From the NCBI RefSeq assembly GCF_015207035.1, contig NZ_JADEXQ010000049.1:1-46412 (forward strand): a stretch of DNA of 46,412 bases, given 5' to 3'. Each line of letters begins with the position of its first letter. Position 1 is the stretch's first letter. Below, in pieces: positions 10,497 through 18,386 of this stretch. Position numbers and translations under genes: made by a program. The notes under the pieces were generated by a model. The model saw only the letters and a program-made list of their open reading frames with translations. It was not told the DNA's origin and searched no databases. The stretch comes from Romeriopsis navalis LEGE 11480. GTDB lineage: Bacteria; Cyanobacteriota; Cyanobacteriia; Leptolyngbyales; Leptolyngbyaceae.

Positions 10497-10614
10497 CTTT
10501 GGTGCAGAACTGCGATAAAAGTCCAGAATCATGCGGAAAAGTGGCCAGTATGATGAATGGGTAATGAGCTACGTATGCTAGACGTGCTTGTTCTCAATCA
10601 TTTGTGCTGCCCCC

Positions 10615-12330
10615 ATGACTAAAAAAGATTTAAGTGAGTCGGATATTTGCGATCGCTATATTACTCCGGCAATTCACAATGCAGGCTGGCTGCCCCAGCT
10701 AATCAGTCGAGAATACTTTACAGATGGAGAAGTCCAATTAGATGATGGGCGAATAGTTCGAGGTGGTAGGAAGCGTGCAGACTATCTATTATTTTTCCGA
10801 GAGAATTATCCGATTGCTGTTGTTGAGGCTAAGCGTAATAAATACACAGTTCGTCATGGCCTGCAGCAAGCCTTAGGCTATGCAGAAACTCTGAATGTAC
10901 CTTTTGCGTTTTCCTCTAATGGTGATGCCTTTTATCTGCATGATCGCAGTGGAACCTATCCTGTGCTTGAGACAGAGCTTGCTCTTGATAAGTTTCCTAC
11001 ACCAGATGATCTCTGGAATCGCTATCTGCAGTGGCAAAAGTTAGCTGCGAAGGACGAAGCTCTATTAAAAACTGCCTATCATAGCAATGATGAAAAGCAG
11101 CCACGTTACTATCAGCGAGATGCAATCAACCAGACAATTGCTGCAATGTCGCGCGGCCAAAAGCGCTGTTTAATTGTGATGGCGACTGGTGCCGGGAAAA
11201 CTTACACGGTTTTTAATATCTTATGGCGTCTATGGAAAGCCAGACAAGCGAGAAGAATTCTTTTTTTGGCTGATCGCAATGCGCTGATCAACCAAACAAT
11301 AACGAATGACTTTTCCCCTTTTGGCGAAGTGATGACAAAGTTGACGCGGAAGTTGGTTGATTCAAATGGAAAAATTAATACTTCCTATCAGGTATATCTT
11401 GGGACTTATCAGGCGATAGTTGGTCAGGAAGCTCAGGAGCCTTTATACCCTAAGTTCCCATCTGATTTCTTTGATTTAATTGTTGTTGATGAGTGTCATC
11501 GTGGTAGTGCAGAAGAGGATTCCAATTGGCGTACTGTATTAGACTATTTTTCCAGTGCTACTCAACTTGGATTAACTGCAACGCCAAAAGAAACAAAATA
11601 TACTTCTAATATTGATTACTTTGGGACTCCACTTCATATTTACTCCCTGAAGCGCGGCATTCAAGATGGCTTTCTTGCTCCGTTTTGGAAGATACGGATT
11701 ACTTTGGATAAAGATATTGAGGGCTGGACCCCTAAATCCCATGAGCTAACTCAATCCGGGGGACGCCTCAAAAGTCAGCAATATAATCCACGTGATCGTA
11801 ATCAGGATATTCAGTTTGAACAGCGTGTTTTGGCAGTTGCTAAATATGTGAGTGAGTTTTTGCATCGAGGAGATCCAATGCGGAAAACCATTGTGTTCTG
11901 TGAAGATGTGGCTCATGCCGAAAAAATGCGCTCTGCATTTGCAAGATTGAAAATCAATCGTTCGTTAATTGAAAAGAATCATCGCTATGTGATGCAAATT
12001 ACTGGTGACGAGCAAGAAGGGAAAGCAGAAATTGGCAACTTTATTGATCCGGAAGAATCATATCCTGTGATTGCGACAACTTCTAAGTTATTGTCAACGG
12101 GGGTAGACGCGAAAACATGTCATTTGATTGTGATTGATCGGCCAATCAATTCAATGACTGAATTCAAACAAATTATTGGACGAGGAACACGCTTATGTCC
12201 TGAATATGGAAAGCACTTTTTTACGGTAATTGACTTTCGAAACGCTACAGAGCTATTTGAGGATAAAGACTGGGATGGGCCCGCGATTCAATATTCTTCT
12301 TTCGAGAGAAAAATGACGAAGAAGAGTTGA
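10615..12330 (+). CDS. hsdR: Type I restriction enzyme R subunit, nuclease and helicase part (split from its C-terminal domain)
   Basis: Motor and nuclease subunit of a type I restriction system, which translocates DNA and cuts unmodified targets. With the ATG at 10615 it has 571 residues. N-terminal PD-(D/E)XK nuclease: D56 in RADYLLF and E71-x-K73 in VVEAKR. SF2 helicase: Walker A ATGAGKT at about 190-196, DECH at about 292-295, LTATPK at about 321, QIIGRGTRL near 519. The frame stops right after WDGPAIQYSSFERK, in the linker where EcoEI-type HsdR proteins continue into their C-terminal domain. That domain is encoded in another frame by the next gene (12327-12950). The codons look more A+T-rich than those of the polysaccharide genes, suggesting acquisition. 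The frame is open to a TTG at 10588, but the ATG matches family N-termini better. Confidence 0.88.
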   Translation: MTKKDLSESDICDRYITPAIHNAGWLPQLISREYFTDGEVQLDDGRIVRGGRKRADYLLFFRENYPIAVVEAKRNKYTVRHGLQQALGYAETLNVPFAFSSNGDAFYLHDRSGTYPVLETELALDKFPTPDDLWNRYLQWQKLAAKDEALLKTAYHSNDEKQPRYYQRDAINQTIAAMSRGQKRCLIVMATGAGKTYTVFNILWRLWKARQARRILFLADRNALINQTITNDFSPFGEVMTKLTRKLVDSNGKINTSYQVYLGTYQAIVGQEAQEPLYPKFPSDFFDLIVVDECHRGSAEEDSNWRTVLDYFSSATQLGLTATPKETKYTSNIDYFGTPLHIYSLKRGIQDGFLAPFWKIRITLDKDIEGWTPKSHELTQSGGRLKSQQYNPRDRNQDIQFEQRVLAVAKYVSEFLHRGDPMRKTIVFCEDVAHAEKMRSAFARLKINRSLIEKNHRYVMQITGDEQEGKAEIGNFIDPEESYPVIATTSKLLSTGVDAKTCHLIVIDRPINSMTEFKQIIGRGTRLCPEYGKHFFTVIDFRNATELFEDKDWDGPAIQYSSFERKMTKKS

Positions 12331-12950
12331 ATAAAAATCGACGCACTACTTCCAAGCCGCGAGCTCTCAGAAAAAATCCATACGTTGTCCATGATGTGGA
12401 ATTTAAGGTTCTTGAGACGGAAGTCGCTTATCATGGCGAAGGTGAACCGCTTAAAGGGATAAAGCTACGGGCGTATGTTCAGCAAGTTTTAATTGATAAA
12501 TTTCAATCACTCGACCATTTCAGCCAGCGATGGCTAACGCTGCTGAAAAATGGTTCGAAGGTTTCAGCGTTGGACCTTCCTGAAGCGTTACAGGAACAAC
12601 TCACAGTACAACTTGGTAAGGAATATTGTTTGTTTGACTGTATATGTAGTGCTGCATTTGATCAAACTCCCATTACGCGTAGGGATCGTGCTGAGAACGT
12701 TCGTCTACTAGATCTGTCCATGTGCTCTACGGATCAGCAAAGGGAAATTTTAGATGCGTTACTAGATCAATATATTCACCAAGGGATAGCAGTCATGATG
12801 AATAAGCAAGTATTGCAGCTTCCCCCTTTTACGAAGATGGGGACACTCCTCGAATTGCTCAATGTGTTTGGTGGAAAGAGGCAATATGAAAAGGCGGTGG
12901 GGGAACTTGCTCGAATGTTGTACGATGGTTCAGAAAAATCGGCGGTTTAA
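12327..12950 (+). CDS. hsdR: HsdR C-terminal domain in a separate frame (EcoEI_R_C-like)
   Basis: A 207-residue frame that overlaps the stop of the preceding gene by 4 nt (TTGA), beginning at a possible TTG. The sequence matches the C-terminal HsdM/HsdS-contact domain of EcoEI-type R subunits (PF08463): NPYVVHDVEFKVLETEV, AFDQTPITRRDRAENVR, ILDALLDQYIHQGI, LQLPPFTKMGTLLELLNVFGG. Reading this frame upstream from 12327 gives an acidic stretch (N-D-E-E-L) that would fit the linker. One base lost or gained in the A5 run at 12309-12313 would therefore restore a single HsdR of about 778 residues. It may be a real split subunit expressed by translational coupling, an inactivating frameshift, or a sequencing error. 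Confidence 0.85.
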   Translation: MNKNRRTTSKPRALRKNPYVVHDVEFKVLETEVAYHGEGEPLKGIKLRAYVQQVLIDKFQSLDHFSQRWLTLLKNGSKVSALDLPEALQEQLTVQLGKEYCLFDCICSAAFDQTPITRRDRAENVRLLDLSMCSTDQQREILDALLDQYIHQGIAVMMNKQVLQLPPFTKMGTLLELLNVFGGKRQYEKAVGELARMLYDGSEKSAV

Positions 12951-13019: not shown

Positions 13020-14477
13020 ATGTCATTGTCCGCTACGGTTAAATCGATTCAGGACATCATGAGAAAGGATGTTGGAGTTGATGGAGATGCGCAGCGGATT
13101 GGTCAGTTGGGATGGATGCTGTTTTACAAGATCTTCAGCGATCAAGACATAGCGCTGGAAGCCGCATTGGATAACTATCAATTGCCGATTCCGTCAGAAC
13201 TGCAATGGTCCAATTGGGTAGATGTTGACTCTTTAGGTAAAGAAGCCTTAACAGGTGATGAGTTATTGGCTTTAGTGGACGGCAAACTATTTCCTACGTT
13301 AAAAGAATTGGACTTCCAGCAGTACGAAGGAGTCGTGCGTGAACGTGGGGCTTTACTGAGATCAGTTTTTGAAGATGCATACAACTATATGAAGTCGGGG
13401 ACTTTGCTCCGTCAGGTTGTCGATAAGATTAATGACAATATCAACTTCAATGCTTCGTCTCAGCGGGACATGTTTGGGGATATGTACGAGCAACTGCTCA
13501 AAGACCTTCAAGGCGCAGGAAACGCGGGAGAATTCTATACTCCGCGTGCATTGACGCAGTTTGCGATCGATATGGTGAATCCTCAGTTAGGGGAAAAAGT
13601 GATTGATCCAGCCTGCGGTACAGGCGGCTTTCTGACCTGCGCATTTGATCATCTGAAAGCGCAAGCTAAGTCTCCAAATCAGTTAGATCAGGCTAAGAAA
13701 GGTGTGTTCGGAATTGAGAAAAAACCGCTACCACACCTGCTGTGTATGACAAATATGTTGGCACATGAGATTGAGGTTCCAACCAACATTCGACGTAAAA
13801 ATACATTGAGTAAGCCGTTATCAAGCTATATGAGATCCGATCAGGTCGACGTAGTGGTGACGAATCCGCCGTTTGGCGGCATGGAAGAGGAAGGTATTGA
13901 GGATAATTTCCCATCATTTAAGACTCGGGAGACGGCGGATTTATTTTTAGTACTGGTGATGCGGTTGCTCAAAGATGGCGGACGGGCGGCGATCGTGCTC
14001 CCTGATGGGACGCTATTTGGTGAGGGGATTAAAACGCGGATTAAGGAGAAGCTGCTGCGGGACTGTAATTTGCATACGATCGTGCGGCTGCCGAATGGGG
14101 TGTTTGCGCCCTATACGAGTATCAAGACGAATTTGTTGTTTTTTACGAAGGGGAAGCCGACCAAGGAGGTTTGGTACTATGAGCATCCCTATCCGAAGGG
14201 GTATAAGTCGTACTCGAAGACGAAGCCGATGCGGATTGAGGAGTTTGAGCCGGAGAAGGCTTGGTGGGAGCACCGCGAGGAGAACGAGTTTGCTTGGAAG
14301 GTGTCGCTCAAATCGATCCAGGAGAATAATTACAATCTGGATGTGAAGAATCCCAATGCGGTGGGGGAGGTGCATGAGGATGCGGCGGTGCTGTTGGATA
14401 AGTATCAGTTTGCGGTGAGTGAGGCGGATAAGGCCCGATCGGCTTTGCAGGCAGCGCTCAGGGATTGTTTGGAGTGA
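13020..14477 (+). CDS. hsdM: Type I restriction-modification system DNA methyltransferase subunit M
   Basis: N6-adenine methyltransferase subunit that works with HsdS to protect the host and with HsdR to restrict. The 485 residues include the N-terminal HsdM_N helical bundle (about 8-140), the SAM-binding motif I DPACGTGGF at 196-204, and the catalytic motif IV NPPFGG at 282-287. A C-terminal helical region ends in KARSALQAALRDCLE. It begins 69 nt after the HsdR C-terminal frame. Codon usage changes along the gene: roughly the first 900 bp are A+T-leaning like hsdR, while from about 13925 third positions become G/C-rich, suggesting a recombination junction. Its last 48 nt are partly repeated at 15164-15205. 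Confidence 0.95.
   Translation: MSLSATVKSIQDIMRKDVGVDGDAQRIGQLGWMLFYKIFSDQDIALEAALDNYQLPIPSELQWSNWVDVDSLGKEALTGDELLALVDGKLFPTLKELDFQQYEGVVRERGALLRSVFEDAYNYMKSGTLLRQVVDKINDNINFNASSQRDMFGDMYEQLLKDLQGAGNAGEFYTPRALTQFAIDMVNPQLGEKVIDPACGTGGFLTCAFDHLKAQAKSPNQLDQAKKGVFGIEKKPLPHLLCMTNMLAHEIEVPTNIRRKNTLSKPLSSYMRSDQVDVVVTNPPFGGMEEEGIEDNFPSFKTRETADLFLVLVMRLLKDGGRAAIVLPDGTLFGEGIKTRIKEKLLRDCNLHTIVRLPNGVFAPYTSIKTNLLFFTKGKPTKEVWYYEHPYPKGYKSYSKTKPMRIEEFEPEKAWWEHREENEFAWKVSLKSIQENNYNLDVKNPNAVGEVHEDAAVLLDKYQFAVSEADKARSALQAALRDCLE
14430..14477 (+). repeat. hsdM 3'-end repeat, copy 1 (native gene end)
   Basis: The last 15 codons plus stop of hsdM, encoding KARSALQAALRDCLE. A diverged direct copy lies at 15164-15205, just after the PIN toxin gene. 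The first 13 bases (AAGGCCCGATCGG) are identical, and the following CAGGCAGCG is also identical. Confidence 0.85.
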
Positions 14478-14525: not shown

Positions 14526-14750
14526 ATGAGTGCGGTTGTGGAATTTCAGGCACAGGTGAAGGATGGGGTAATTGTGATTCCTGAGCAGTACAAAAGCTCA
14601 TTGAATCAGGCTCAGGATGTACGGGTGATTCTGGTCCAGCAAAATTCGAAGCCAACCAATGATGCGGATTTTTTGACCGAGTTGTTAGAAAATCCGGTGG
14701 TGATGGCGGATTTTGTGCCGTTGACGCGGGATGAGATGTATGAGCGTTAG
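14526..14750 (+). CDS. Antitoxin of a PIN-type toxin-antitoxin pair
   Basis: A 74-residue protein predicted to bind and neutralise the downstream PIN ribonuclease and to repress the pair's promoter. The N-terminal half (VVEFQAQVKDGVIVIPEQY) reads like the beta-rich swapped-hairpin fold of AbrB/DUF104-type cyanobacterial antitoxins. The C-terminal half (TELLENPVVMADFVPLTRDEMYER) is acidic and probably wraps the toxin. The ATG at 14526 has a GGGGG tract 7 nt upstream. The frame runs 12 nt further to a TTG, which I did not choose. It overlaps the toxin gene by 11 nt. The pair separates hsdM from hsdS, an unusual place, and is flanked by the duplicated hsdM end. Confidence 0.75.
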   Translation: MSAVVEFQAQVKDGVIVIPEQYKSSLNQAQDVRVILVQQNSKPTNDADFLTELLENPVVMADFVPLTRDEMYER

Positions 14751-15165
14751 TCTGGAATCGTCGCTTTGCTTTGTGGATTCGAATATCTGGCTTTATGCGT
14801 TGATTCGGAGTCAAGATGAACGGAAGCATCAGGTGGCAAATCAGTTATTACGATCGGTGCGGGTGGCAATGAGTGCCCAGGTTGTGAATGAGGTGAGTTT
14901 GAATTTGATGCGCAAGGCGAAGTTTTCGGAAAACCAAGTGGAGCAGTTTATCCGAGGTTGCTATCAATCGCATTTGGTGATGGATTTGAATCAAGCGGTA
15001 CTGCTGCGGGCAGCGGATCTGAGGCGTGGTAGTTATCTGTTTTCGTTTTGGGATAGTTTGGTGGTGGCAGCAGCATTGGAGACGGGGGCAGATGTGCTGA
15101 TTTCGGAGGATATGCAGCAGGGATTAGTCGTTGAAGGTGTTTTGACGATTCATAATCCATTTTAA
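14740..15165 (+). CDS. PIN-domain ribonuclease toxin (VapC-like)
   Basis: A 141-residue PIN protein, predicted to be a metal-dependent RNase that inhibits growth when not bound by its antitoxin. All four acidic positions expected of an active PIN domain are visible: the Asp in CFVDSNIWLYAL, the Glu in VVNEVSLNL, the Asp in FSFWDSLVVAAALE, and the acidic pair in VLISEDMQQG. I start it at the ATG at 14740, overlapping the antitoxin by 11 nt. An in-frame ATG at 14731 is also possible. Its TAA stop at 15163-15165 runs directly into the second copy of the hsdM 3' end, so the insertion junction coincides with the toxin stop. Confidence 0.85.
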   Translation: MSVSLESSLCFVDSNIWLYALIRSQDERKHQVANQLLRSVRVAMSAQVVNEVSLNLMRKAKFSENQVEQFIRGCYQSHLVMDLNQAVLLRAADLRRGSYLFSFWDSLVVAAALETGADVLISEDMQQGLVVEGVLTIHNPF

Positions 15166-15239: not shown

Positions 15240-15464
15240 ATGACGACAGTGACTGAAATTGAAGCGGTGATTCGGCAGTTGTCAGAGGATGATGCGCGGC
15301 GGTTGTCGGTGTTGTTGTTGGGTTATTTGGATGATGCGTGGGATGTGCAAATGCAGGCTGATGTTGAAGGTGGTCGGTTGGATAGGCTGATGGCGCAGGC
15401 GGAGGCGGCGATTGCGGTTGGAAATGTGAGAGATTTGGATGTGTTGCTGAATGAGGCCCCCTAA
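15240..15464 (+). CDS. Orphan antitoxin-like small protein, 3' end altered by a MITE-like repeat
   Basis: A 74-residue protein, MTTVTEIEAVIRQLSEDDAR..., of the short cyanobacterial type usually encoded just before a RelE/ParE toxin. It has a hydrophobic helix (LSVLLLGYLDDAWDVQM), an ADVEGGRLDRLMAQAE segment and VRDLDVLLNE at the end. A GAGGAGA ribosome site lies about 8 nt before the ATG. No toxin gene follows. The last two residues and the stop codon (GCC CCC TAA) come from the left arm of the palindromic element at 15457-15527. Insertion of that element may have trimmed the protein and separated it from, or deleted, its toxin. The family assignment is by resemblance only. Confidence 0.6.
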   Translation: MTTVTEIEAVIRQLSEDDARRLSVLLLGYLDDAWDVQMQADVEGGRLDRLMAQAEAAIAVGNVRDLDVLLNEAP

Positions 15465-15570: not shown

Positions 15571-17220
15571 ATGGATTTGCAGACGTTTTGGGATAACTTC
15601 GATGTGATTGCGGCAGCGCCGGGTGGGGTGCAACGGCTGCGGGAGTTGATTTTGGATTTGGCTGTGCGGGGGAAGTTGGTGCCGCAAGATCAGATGGATG
15701 AGTCTGCGGCGAAGCTGTTGGAAAATATCTCTGAACGGCACACATTATTAGATCCTAAGCAATATAGAAAGCCTAAAAATCTACTGCCAATTAATGAAAT
15801 CGAAAAACCCTTTGACTCACCTCTCGGATGGAGTTGGTGTCGATTTACTGATGTTGGTCTCCTGGGACGTGGTAAGTCAAAACATCGCCCTAGAAATGAT
15901 CCAGCGCTTTATGCAGGAGGTACTATTCCGCTAGTTCAAACGGGAGATGTCGCACGTGCAGATCAGAAGGTTCTAACTCATACAGCACTTTATAACGAAG
16001 CAGGATTAGCACAAAGTCGTTTATGGCCGAAGGGAACCCTTTGTATTACTATTGCTGCAAATATTGCTGATTCTGCCATCTTGGCTTTTGACGCTTGTTT
16101 CCCTGATAGTGTTGTTGGTTTTATTCCAACGTCTCCGATTGAAAGTGCAAGCTACTTTGATTTTTTCATCAGAACGATGAAAAGTAGACTTGAGGACTTT
16201 GCTCCTTCAACTGCTCAAAAGAATATTAATCTGGCTATTCTAAATGAGGTGTTAATCCCACTGCCACCCCTCGCAGAGCAGAAGCGGATTGTGGCGAAGG
16301 TGGATGAATTGATGGCATTGTGCGATCGCTATGAGGCGGCGAAAGTCAATCAAGATACGCTGCGGACAAAACTACGGGCAAGCTCGATCGATGCTCTGAT
16401 GAATGCTGACACAGATGAGGCGTTAAATGCTTCCTGGGAATTTGTTTGTTATAACTGGATCAATCTTAGTCAAACTCTTCCCGGCATTGATAATTTGCGT
16501 AAGGTGATTTTACAACTAGGCGTGCGCGGGAAACTAGTCCCTCAGAATGTGGCTGATGAACCAGTTTCCTCCCTACTAGAGAAAGCGGATGAGCATCGAA
16601 ATCATCTGGAAGCAATTGGGAAAATCAGAAAACAGAAGAAAAAAATAATGCTGCACAGACTTACTTGGCATGTCCCGAAACATTGGGAAGCTACGGGACT
16701 GTCAAAAGTTGCATTTTCCTATGATCATCTACGAGTTCCTATTAATAAAACTGAGCGTGCGACTAGACATGGAAATATCCCTTACTATGGCGCGAATGGG
16801 CAAGTAGGTTGGATTGATGAAGCATTATTTGATGAAGATTTAGTTCTAGTAGTAGAAGATGAAACCTTTATCGGCAGGGTAAAACCTTTCTCATATCAAA
16901 TTTCAGGAAAGGCATGGGTGAATAACCATGCACATGTGTTGAAACCTAGCCATGCATTAGAACCGGAATTTCTCAATTGTGTATTGATGTTTTATCCCTT
17001 TGCTCCACTAACATCTGGAACAACAGGTCGTCGAAAGTTAAATCAGCAAACCCTGATGGGCATAGAAATTCCCCTTCCACCCCTCGCCGAACAAAAACGC
17101 ATCGTCGCTAAAGTCGATCAACTAATGACCCTCTGCGACACCCTCGAAACCCACCTGCGCGAAACCCAGGAAAAATCCAAAGCCCTTGCCGCTGCGGTGG
17201 TGGGGCAGCTAGAGATTTAG
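15571..17220 (+). CDS. hsdS: Type I restriction-modification specificity subunit S
   Basis: DNA-recognition subunit with two target recognition domains, each reading one half of a bipartite target. The 549 residues show an internal repeat: VRGKLVPQ occurs at about residues 30 and 316, and PLPPLAEQKRIVAKVD occurs at about 230 and 506 as the start of the conserved coiled-coil spacers. The first recognition domain (about 80-220) and the second (about 355-500) are dissimilar, as expected. The two spacer copies use different synonymous codons (G-ending in the first, C-ending in the second), so the halves have different histories. The start has GAGGGG about 8 nt upstream. hsdM lies 1.1 kb away because of the inserted genes. 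Confidence 0.93.
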   Translation: MDLQTFWDNFDVIAAAPGGVQRLRELILDLAVRGKLVPQDQMDESAAKLLENISERHTLLDPKQYRKPKNLLPINEIEKPFDSPLGWSWCRFTDVGLLGRGKSKHRPRNDPALYAGGTIPLVQTGDVARADQKVLTHTALYNEAGLAQSRLWPKGTLCITIAANIADSAILAFDACFPDSVVGFIPTSPIESASYFDFFIRTMKSRLEDFAPSTAQKNINLAILNEVLIPLPPLAEQKRIVAKVDELMALCDRYEAAKVNQDTLRTKLRASSIDALMNADTDEALNASWEFVCYNWINLSQTLPGIDNLRKVILQLGVRGKLVPQNVADEPVSSLLEKADEHRNHLEAIGKIRKQKKKIMLHRLTWHVPKHWEATGLSKVAFSYDHLRVPINKTERATRHGNIPYYGANGQVGWIDEALFDEDLVLVVEDETFIGRVKPFSYQISGKAWVNNHAHVLKPSHALEPEFLNCVLMFYPFAPLTSGTTGRRKLNQQTLMGIEIPLPPLAEQKRIVAKVDQLMTLCDTLETHLRETQEKSKALAAAVVGQLEI

Positions 17221-17273: not shown

Positions 17274-18386
17274 ATGAGCGAACTTGCCACCGATGCACTC
17301 TATCAACGGATTCGAGATATCCTCGATGCCGCCAAAATCGGCGTCTCCCGCACCGTCAATACGGCGCAAGTCGTTTCCTACTGGCTCATCGGACGGGAAA
17401 TCGTTGAACAAGAACAACAGGGGCAACAACGCGCCGACTACGGCGAAAGCCTCCTCAAAGACCTCTCCCGCCGCCTCACAAAGGATGTTGGCAAAGGCTT
17501 TTCTTTGTCAAACCTGAAATATATTCGTCAATTCTACGTGGGATTTCCCGATCTTCTAACGGCCACCTCAATTGGTCACGCAGTGCGTGACCAATCTTGC
17601 TCAAGCGACCAATTTGCCACCCTTAGCCAATCTCAATCTAATTGGCAACCCGGTCAACTTCACCCAAACCTCTCCTGGACCCACTACCGCACCCTCCTCC
17701 GCATCGATAACCCTGATGCCCGCGCCTTCTACGAAATCGAAGCCCTCAAAAACAACTGGTCCGCCCGTGAACTCGATCGTCAAATCAACAGCCTGCTATT
17801 CGAGCGCCTCGCCAAAAGTACCGACAAAGCCGGATTGTTGCAACTCGCCACCCAAGGTCAAACCATCCAAACCCCTAGCGACGTATTTAAAGACCCCGTC
17901 GTCATCGAATTTCTTGGTCTACCCGAATCACCGCGCCTCGTTGAATCAGACCTCGAAACGGCACTGATTAGTAACCTCCAGACCTTCCTGCTCGAACTCG
18001 GTAAAGGTTTCGCCTTCGTCTCCCGCCAAGAACGCATTAGCCTCGACGGCGATCACTTCTATATCGATCTCGTCTTTTACCACACCATTCTCAAATGCTA
18101 CGTCCTGATTGACCTGAAAGTCGGCAAACTCAACCACGGCGACCTTGGCCAGCTCCAGCTTTATGTCAATTACTACGATCGTCAACGCTGTGCCCCCGAT
18201 GACAACCCCACCCTCGGCCTCATCCTCTGCTCCGACAAAAACGATGCCGTCGTCAAATACACCCTCGGCCCCGAACAGCAAACCAAAATCTTCGCCAGCC
18301 GCTACAAACTTCACCTCCCCACCGAAGCCGAACTCCAAGCCGAACTCAATCGCGAAATCGCCCAACTCCGTGCGGATGAATCGTGA
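17274..18386 (+). CDS. YhcG/DUF1016-family PD-(D/E)XK nuclease-fold protein
   Basis: A 370-residue protein with the two parts of the YhcG family. The N-terminal DUF1016_N region (about 1-180) has the VSYWLIGREIVEQEQQG and GFSLSNLKYIRQFY segments. The C-terminal PD-(D/E)XK-like domain (about 220-360) contains DGDHFYIDLVFYH and VLIDLKVGKL, which supply the Asp and D-x-K residues of that nuclease fold. Such genes often sit beside type I restriction genes, but their role is not established. A part in defence is my inference. It starts 53 nt after hsdS. Codon usage is strikingly C-ending (ctc, gcc, aac), as in the last part of hsdS, unlike the rest of the locus. Confidence 0.85.
   Translation: MSELATDALYQRIRDILDAAKIGVSRTVNTAQVVSYWLIGREIVEQEQQGQQRADYGESLLKDLSRRLTKDVGKGFSLSNLKYIRQFYVGFPDLLTATSIGHAVRDQSCSSDQFATLSQSQSNWQPGQLHPNLSWTHYRTLLRIDNPDARAFYEIEALKNNWSARELDRQINSLLFERLAKSTDKAGLLQLATQGQTIQTPSDVFKDPVVIEFLGLPESPRLVESDLETALISNLQTFLLELGKGFAFVSRQERISLDGDHFYIDLVFYHTILKCYVLIDLKVGKLNHGDLGQLQLYVNYYDRQRCAPDDNPTLGLILCSDKNDAVVKYTLGPEQQTKIFASRYKLHLPTEAELQAELNREIAQLRADES

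Follow-up and report, generated by a model that had tools for sequence, protein, structure and literature searches.

The hsdR gene of a type I restriction-modification operon in Romeriopsis navalis LEGE 11480 lies in two reading frames, probably through a recent frame break as constraint on the R subunit loosened

The window, namely the whole stretch of 46,412 nucleotides analysed here, carries a type I restriction-modification operon in the order hsdR-hsdM-(PIN pair)-hsdS, with an R subunit of the EcoAI/FtnUII type; this is the only hsdR-type locus in the genome. The R subunit is encoded in two reading frames, which divide it at the linker between the motor and the C-terminal domain. The explanation that we favour, with somewhat better than even confidence, is that a recent frame break occurred in an R subunit whose constraint was already loosening; restriction would then be weakened or lost, and HsdM and HsdS would remain as a methylase. 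The likelihoods given to this and the other readings are judgements, made without computation. The features are as follows.

10615-12330, plus strand: N-terminal part of HsdR (ORF1), 571 aa from ATG, with a PD-(D/E)xK nuclease and two RecA-like motor domains
12304-12330, plus strand: interval of the frame break, in the unconserved linker between the motor and the C domain
12327-12950, plus strand: ORF2, 207 aa when read from TTG in the -1 frame, encoding the EcoEI_R_C domain of HsdR
13020-14477, plus strand: HsdM, intact (PF02384 at 1.4e-79, and HsdM_N)
14526-15165, plus strand: passenger pair between hsdM and hsdS, an antitoxin-like ORF overlapping a PIN-domain gene
15571-17220, plus strand: HsdS, intact frame, with two target-recognition domains (PF01420, two stretches)

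The first-pass annotation of this DNA had described an HsdR in two frames, with ORF1 running to 12330 and ORF2 starting from 12327 in a 4-nt TTGA overlap, and inspection of the reading frames confirmed this. ORF1 is open until the TGA at 12328-12330 and the frame of ORF2 is open from 12267, both being open together over 12267-12330; the first usual start codon of ORF2 is the TTG at 12327, which produces the overlap. For ORF1, the ATG at 10615, where the alignments of relatives begin, is a likelier start than the TTG at 10588. The assignment of a nuclease/helicase part and an EcoEI-type C-terminal domain was also borne out by the profiles. ORF1 matches positions 1-550 of the 768 in NF046051 (EcoAI/FtnUII R), scoring 821.7 bits by itself (cut-off 550), as well as PF04313 and PF04851, while ORF2 matches positions 576-768 of NF046051, and PF08463 (EcoEI_R_C) at 2.4e-21. 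The two ORFs are complementary halves of HsdR in a mutual -1 relation, and ORF1 ends in a short out-of-frame tail. The motifs EAK, QxxxY, ATGAGKT, DECH, LTATP, TGVDA, and QIIGRGTR are all kept in ORF1.

The gene resembles the EcoAI/FtnUII family (NF046051; PF08463) in its domain order of nuclease, motor, and C domain, in its catalytic motifs, and in adjoining hsdM and hsdS, both of which have intact frames, as in a type I system. It differs from this family in lying in two frames instead of one, the EcoEI_R_C domain being present but not on the same chain, and in a C domain that departs strongly from what is typical of the family. HsdM keeps the motifs DPACGTGGF and NPPF and is 74-76% identical to its nearest relatives. 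In the passenger pair, the antitoxin-like ORF (14526-14750, 74 aa) was read from the sequence, and the PIN-domain gene occupies 14731-15165 (PF01850, 8.2e-10); a further small ORF follows at 15240-15464. G017 (L074) likewise has a PIN gene between its M and S genes, G420 (L081) has one ahead of S, and G197 (L077) retains a remnant. Directly after hsdS lies a gene for a DUF1016/YhcG-type PD-(D/E)xK nuclease (17274-18386; PADLOC candidate PDC-S02).

The zero frame is comparable with those of relatives until the F at 12301-12303 (IQYSSF versus IQDENF). Therefore, the break may lie anywhere within 12304-12330, including outside the A5 run at 12309-12313, in which an indel had earlier been proposed. 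The run is unremarkable, since 19 homopolymers of at least five bases occur in hsdR. The linker is conserved among relatives neither in sequence nor in length. It had also been suggested that joining the frames would create an acidic linker fitting the family; the length on read-through, 30 residues against 32 in the two nearest relatives, agrees with this, but the fit says little for a linker that is not conserved.

Relatives were surveyed in the same family, in a sample of the phylum (386 genomes), and in a scan of prokaryote genomes. Five other matches were found in the same family at E < 1e-20, with frames of 789-825 aa, and among the 44 genomes of the phylum with a match, HsdR is one chain in almost all. 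Across prokaryotes, 75 of the 80 loci have an HsdR frame of at least 700 aa, and the closest relatives have 788 (G049), 795 (G017), and 812 aa (L095). No second clean split at this position was found among the cyanobacterial loci or the 80 wider loci. The comparison with relatives, named as a check in the first-pass annotation, thus shows a split that is private to this genome within the sample. Plasmid and viral collections provided distant matches only, and a literature search for a split HsdR returned no described case. To our knowledge, no natural HsdR split at this linker has been known earlier.

The short HsdR frames found elsewhere are due to contig ends or to lesions at unrelated points: about 95 residues lost near aa 374-469 together with a frame change (G197), several lesions each (G193 and G321), a gap of about 1.3 kb, the size of an insertion (G350), a frame change near aa 490 (G007:C20), and one stop (G395). 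Given such lesions, sporadic loss of R is frequent in this cyanobacterial group. Disrupted hsd genes have been called common in a review (PMC3874165). The window resembles such decayed loci in its broken hsdR beside intact hsdM and hsdS frames, and differs from them in that just one small lesion is present, located in a domain linker, and both halves are open.

One further candidate for a split, G010 (frame of 633 aa), was ruled out, for in this genome a deletion fuses HsdR to the end of HsdM. Joins of the HsdR motor part to an HsdM remnant by deletion were seen in G010 (L090, 1303-3198), G059 (L080), and G420 (L081); they are in frame or nearly so, and are similar losses in separate genera. 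In G161 (L076), about 212 residues are missing from the N terminus of HsdR; on the minus strand, upstream of about 8319, the open frame enters simple repeats that code for GDGG, WGR, and SPL units.

A feature that goes beyond the first-pass annotation is the acceleration of HsdR. Relative to the two nearest relatives, the identity is 66.5-66.8% in the N part and 35.6-38.1% in the C domain, and the drop starts at the break. For the 141 pairs of relatives whose N parts are 65-70% identical, the C-domain identity is 52.4 ± 2.8%, with a minimum of 45.5%. In the tree of the N part, the window nests with G049, G017, L095, and G161 (support 91-97); in that of the C domain, it stands beside L095 of the same clade on a very long branch. 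The tip branch measures 0.61 for the N part and 1.41 for the C domain, whereas the whole distance between G017 and G049 is 0.24 and 0.28, respectively. For HsdM, the tip branch is 0.30 against a distance of 0.19. We also examined the near-invariant sites, defined for HsdR as those with at least 90% conservation across 133 copies. In the C domain, 20 of 47 are changed (43%; rank 1 of 133), mostly radically, against 21% in the next copy and a median of 4%; in the N part, 24 of 226 are changed (10.6%; again rank 1 of 133; median 2.2%). For HsdM, the number is 7 of 152, rank 10 of 79. Because the changed sites and the tip branches of R exceed those of M, these data favour the view that constraint was lost on R, and mostly on its C domain, while M is not conspicuous. 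Compensating frameshifts within ORF2 were ruled out as the cause of the divergence by a gapless alignment over 194 columns, and the other frames of the region gave no match to the family profile. Nor do we favour a chimeric origin in which the C domain came from a distant clade, since its best matches are the same relatives as for the N part and it groups with L095 in the tree.

Despite this divergence, ORF2 is free of stops and indels. When neutral change was simulated from the C domain of G017, fewer than 1% of 300 runs lacked a stop by the time identity had fallen to 60%. The codon use of ORF2 scores lower (-1.264) than the genome's long genes do on average (-1.134 ± 0.061), but higher than its own other frames (-1.375 and -1.443). 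As neutral drift would leave stops, selection probably kept the C domain coding for most of the time in which it diverged. This implies either a late break or an ORF2 that continues to be translated and used. An AlphaFold2 model of ORF2 is mostly helical (pLDDT 75.9) and suggests that the domain still folds, although the model owes much to the alignment of related sequences and cannot serve as a functional test. Neither structure search of the PDB gave an informative match to it: Foldseek found none at E ≤ 0.001, and the best match with VIA had a Z of 4.6.

Under the explanation that we favour, the constraint on R would have loosened before or around the break, and one frame break would then have fallen in the linker between the motor and the C-terminal domain. 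The C domain would thereafter be made poorly or not at all, so that restriction would be lost or much weakened. The EcoEI_R_C domain would, from its place in the chain, do the job of the helical domain of EcoR124I. ORF1 probably folds alone, because it matches a crystallised HsdR chain of 590 residues (3H1T, aligned with residues 5-556 of ORF1 at E 2.1e-143), which we take to be a fragment of the Vibrio vulnificus protein. Like ORF1, this chain comprises the nuclease and the motor and lacks the C domain, but it is a crystallised fragment and apparently no natural split gene. With the C domain missing, however, ORF1 would be only poorly anchored to the methylase; restriction should fail and modification should continue, with HsdM and HsdS going on as a methylase. 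We infer, then, that the break is recent and that modification persists while the cell assembles no functional R. What is expected of a pseudogene is found in part: the lesion disrupts the frame and is absent from relatives, and conserved sites show excess changes, yet there is no stop or indel beyond it.

The first-pass annotation had listed a sequencing or assembly error, a loss of restriction, a phase-variable switch, and a two-part R subunit held together by translational coupling, and these were the right alternatives to consider. For decay of R speak the complementary halves in a -1 relation in a gene that relatives have fused, the HsdR copies broken elsewhere in the phylum, and the fact that both halves of HsdR rank first in changed near-invariant sites, with HsdM only tenth. 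On the other side, every catalytic motif is kept, selection probably kept ORF2 coding for most of the divergence, and the linker makes up about 30 of the 778 residues, so that a random lesion would hit it with a chance of only about 4%. An error, behind which the living cell would have a single intact and fast-evolving hsdR, is possible but not our first guess, and we regard it as unlikely. The gene has one small lesion and is otherwise open, its relatives are fused, and the draft assembly consists of 251 contigs. However, when 1.25 Mb of the assembly was compared with proteins of relatives, a frame change was found in only four other genes within the 293 kb that aligned, so indel errors are not widespread; besides, A5 is not a hard homopolymer, and an error leaves the excess divergence of HsdR unexplained. 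Among those four genes are two Uma2-like ones (L180, L253) and a histidine-kinase-like one with two frame changes (L194, 9941-10643; G000:C19).

We give a slightly smaller chance, which is to say a slight one, to a two-part R subunit, in which the nuclease-motor and the docking domain are separate proteins assembling on HsdM/HsdS and the C domain, once freed, has changed rapidly, ORF2 perhaps being made by reinitiation at the TTGA overlap. This reading is kept alive by the open and coding-like state of ORF2; moreover, the break sits where a split would be least harmful, the rate jump starts at the break, and the N part alone matches the 3H1T chain. In HsdR of EcoR124I, the motor and the C helical domain make few contacts with each other (PMC5248579), and the S subunit of EcoDXXI is functional as two chains (PMC3874165). 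Split working S subunits (EcoDXXI truncations and NgoAV) are similar in that one type I chain is divided at a domain border, but they concern S, and their activity was experimentally shown. On the other hand, the split is common to no relative surveyed, 43% of the near-invariant C-domain sites are lost, mostly by radical changes, and the N part is also the most derived of 133. The overlap did not support the coupling proposed earlier: an NTGA overlap of start and stop arises in 39% of 5591 random -1 shifts in this genome, so the TTGA is a matter of geometry and does not speak for coupling, and the TTG start is preceded by no clear Shine-Dalgarno sequence. Programmed -1 frameshifting to a full-length minority product is very improbable. 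The frames overlap by 61 nt in the right relation, and re-pairing in the -1 frame is possible with AAA in the P site, but no X XXY YYZ heptamer was found in the zero frame of the overlap, the structure downstream is only weak, and the A5 run is missing in the three closest relatives aligned. Least credible of all is a phase-variable switch by slippage at A5, which does lie inside the break interval; five bases are short for slippage, the window has no run of at least eight, and the run is not conserved.

Restriction subunits are often lost while the methylase stays. In the window, one lesion, two open halves, and a drifting docking domain suggest an order of events: constraint is relaxed first, on R in general and on its docking domain in particular, and collapse of the gene follows. 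Should both halves be made instead, it would follow that HsdR can function with its motor and its docking domain on separate chains, and a two-part R, if true, would allow one to ask whether the docking domain has to be attached to the motor.
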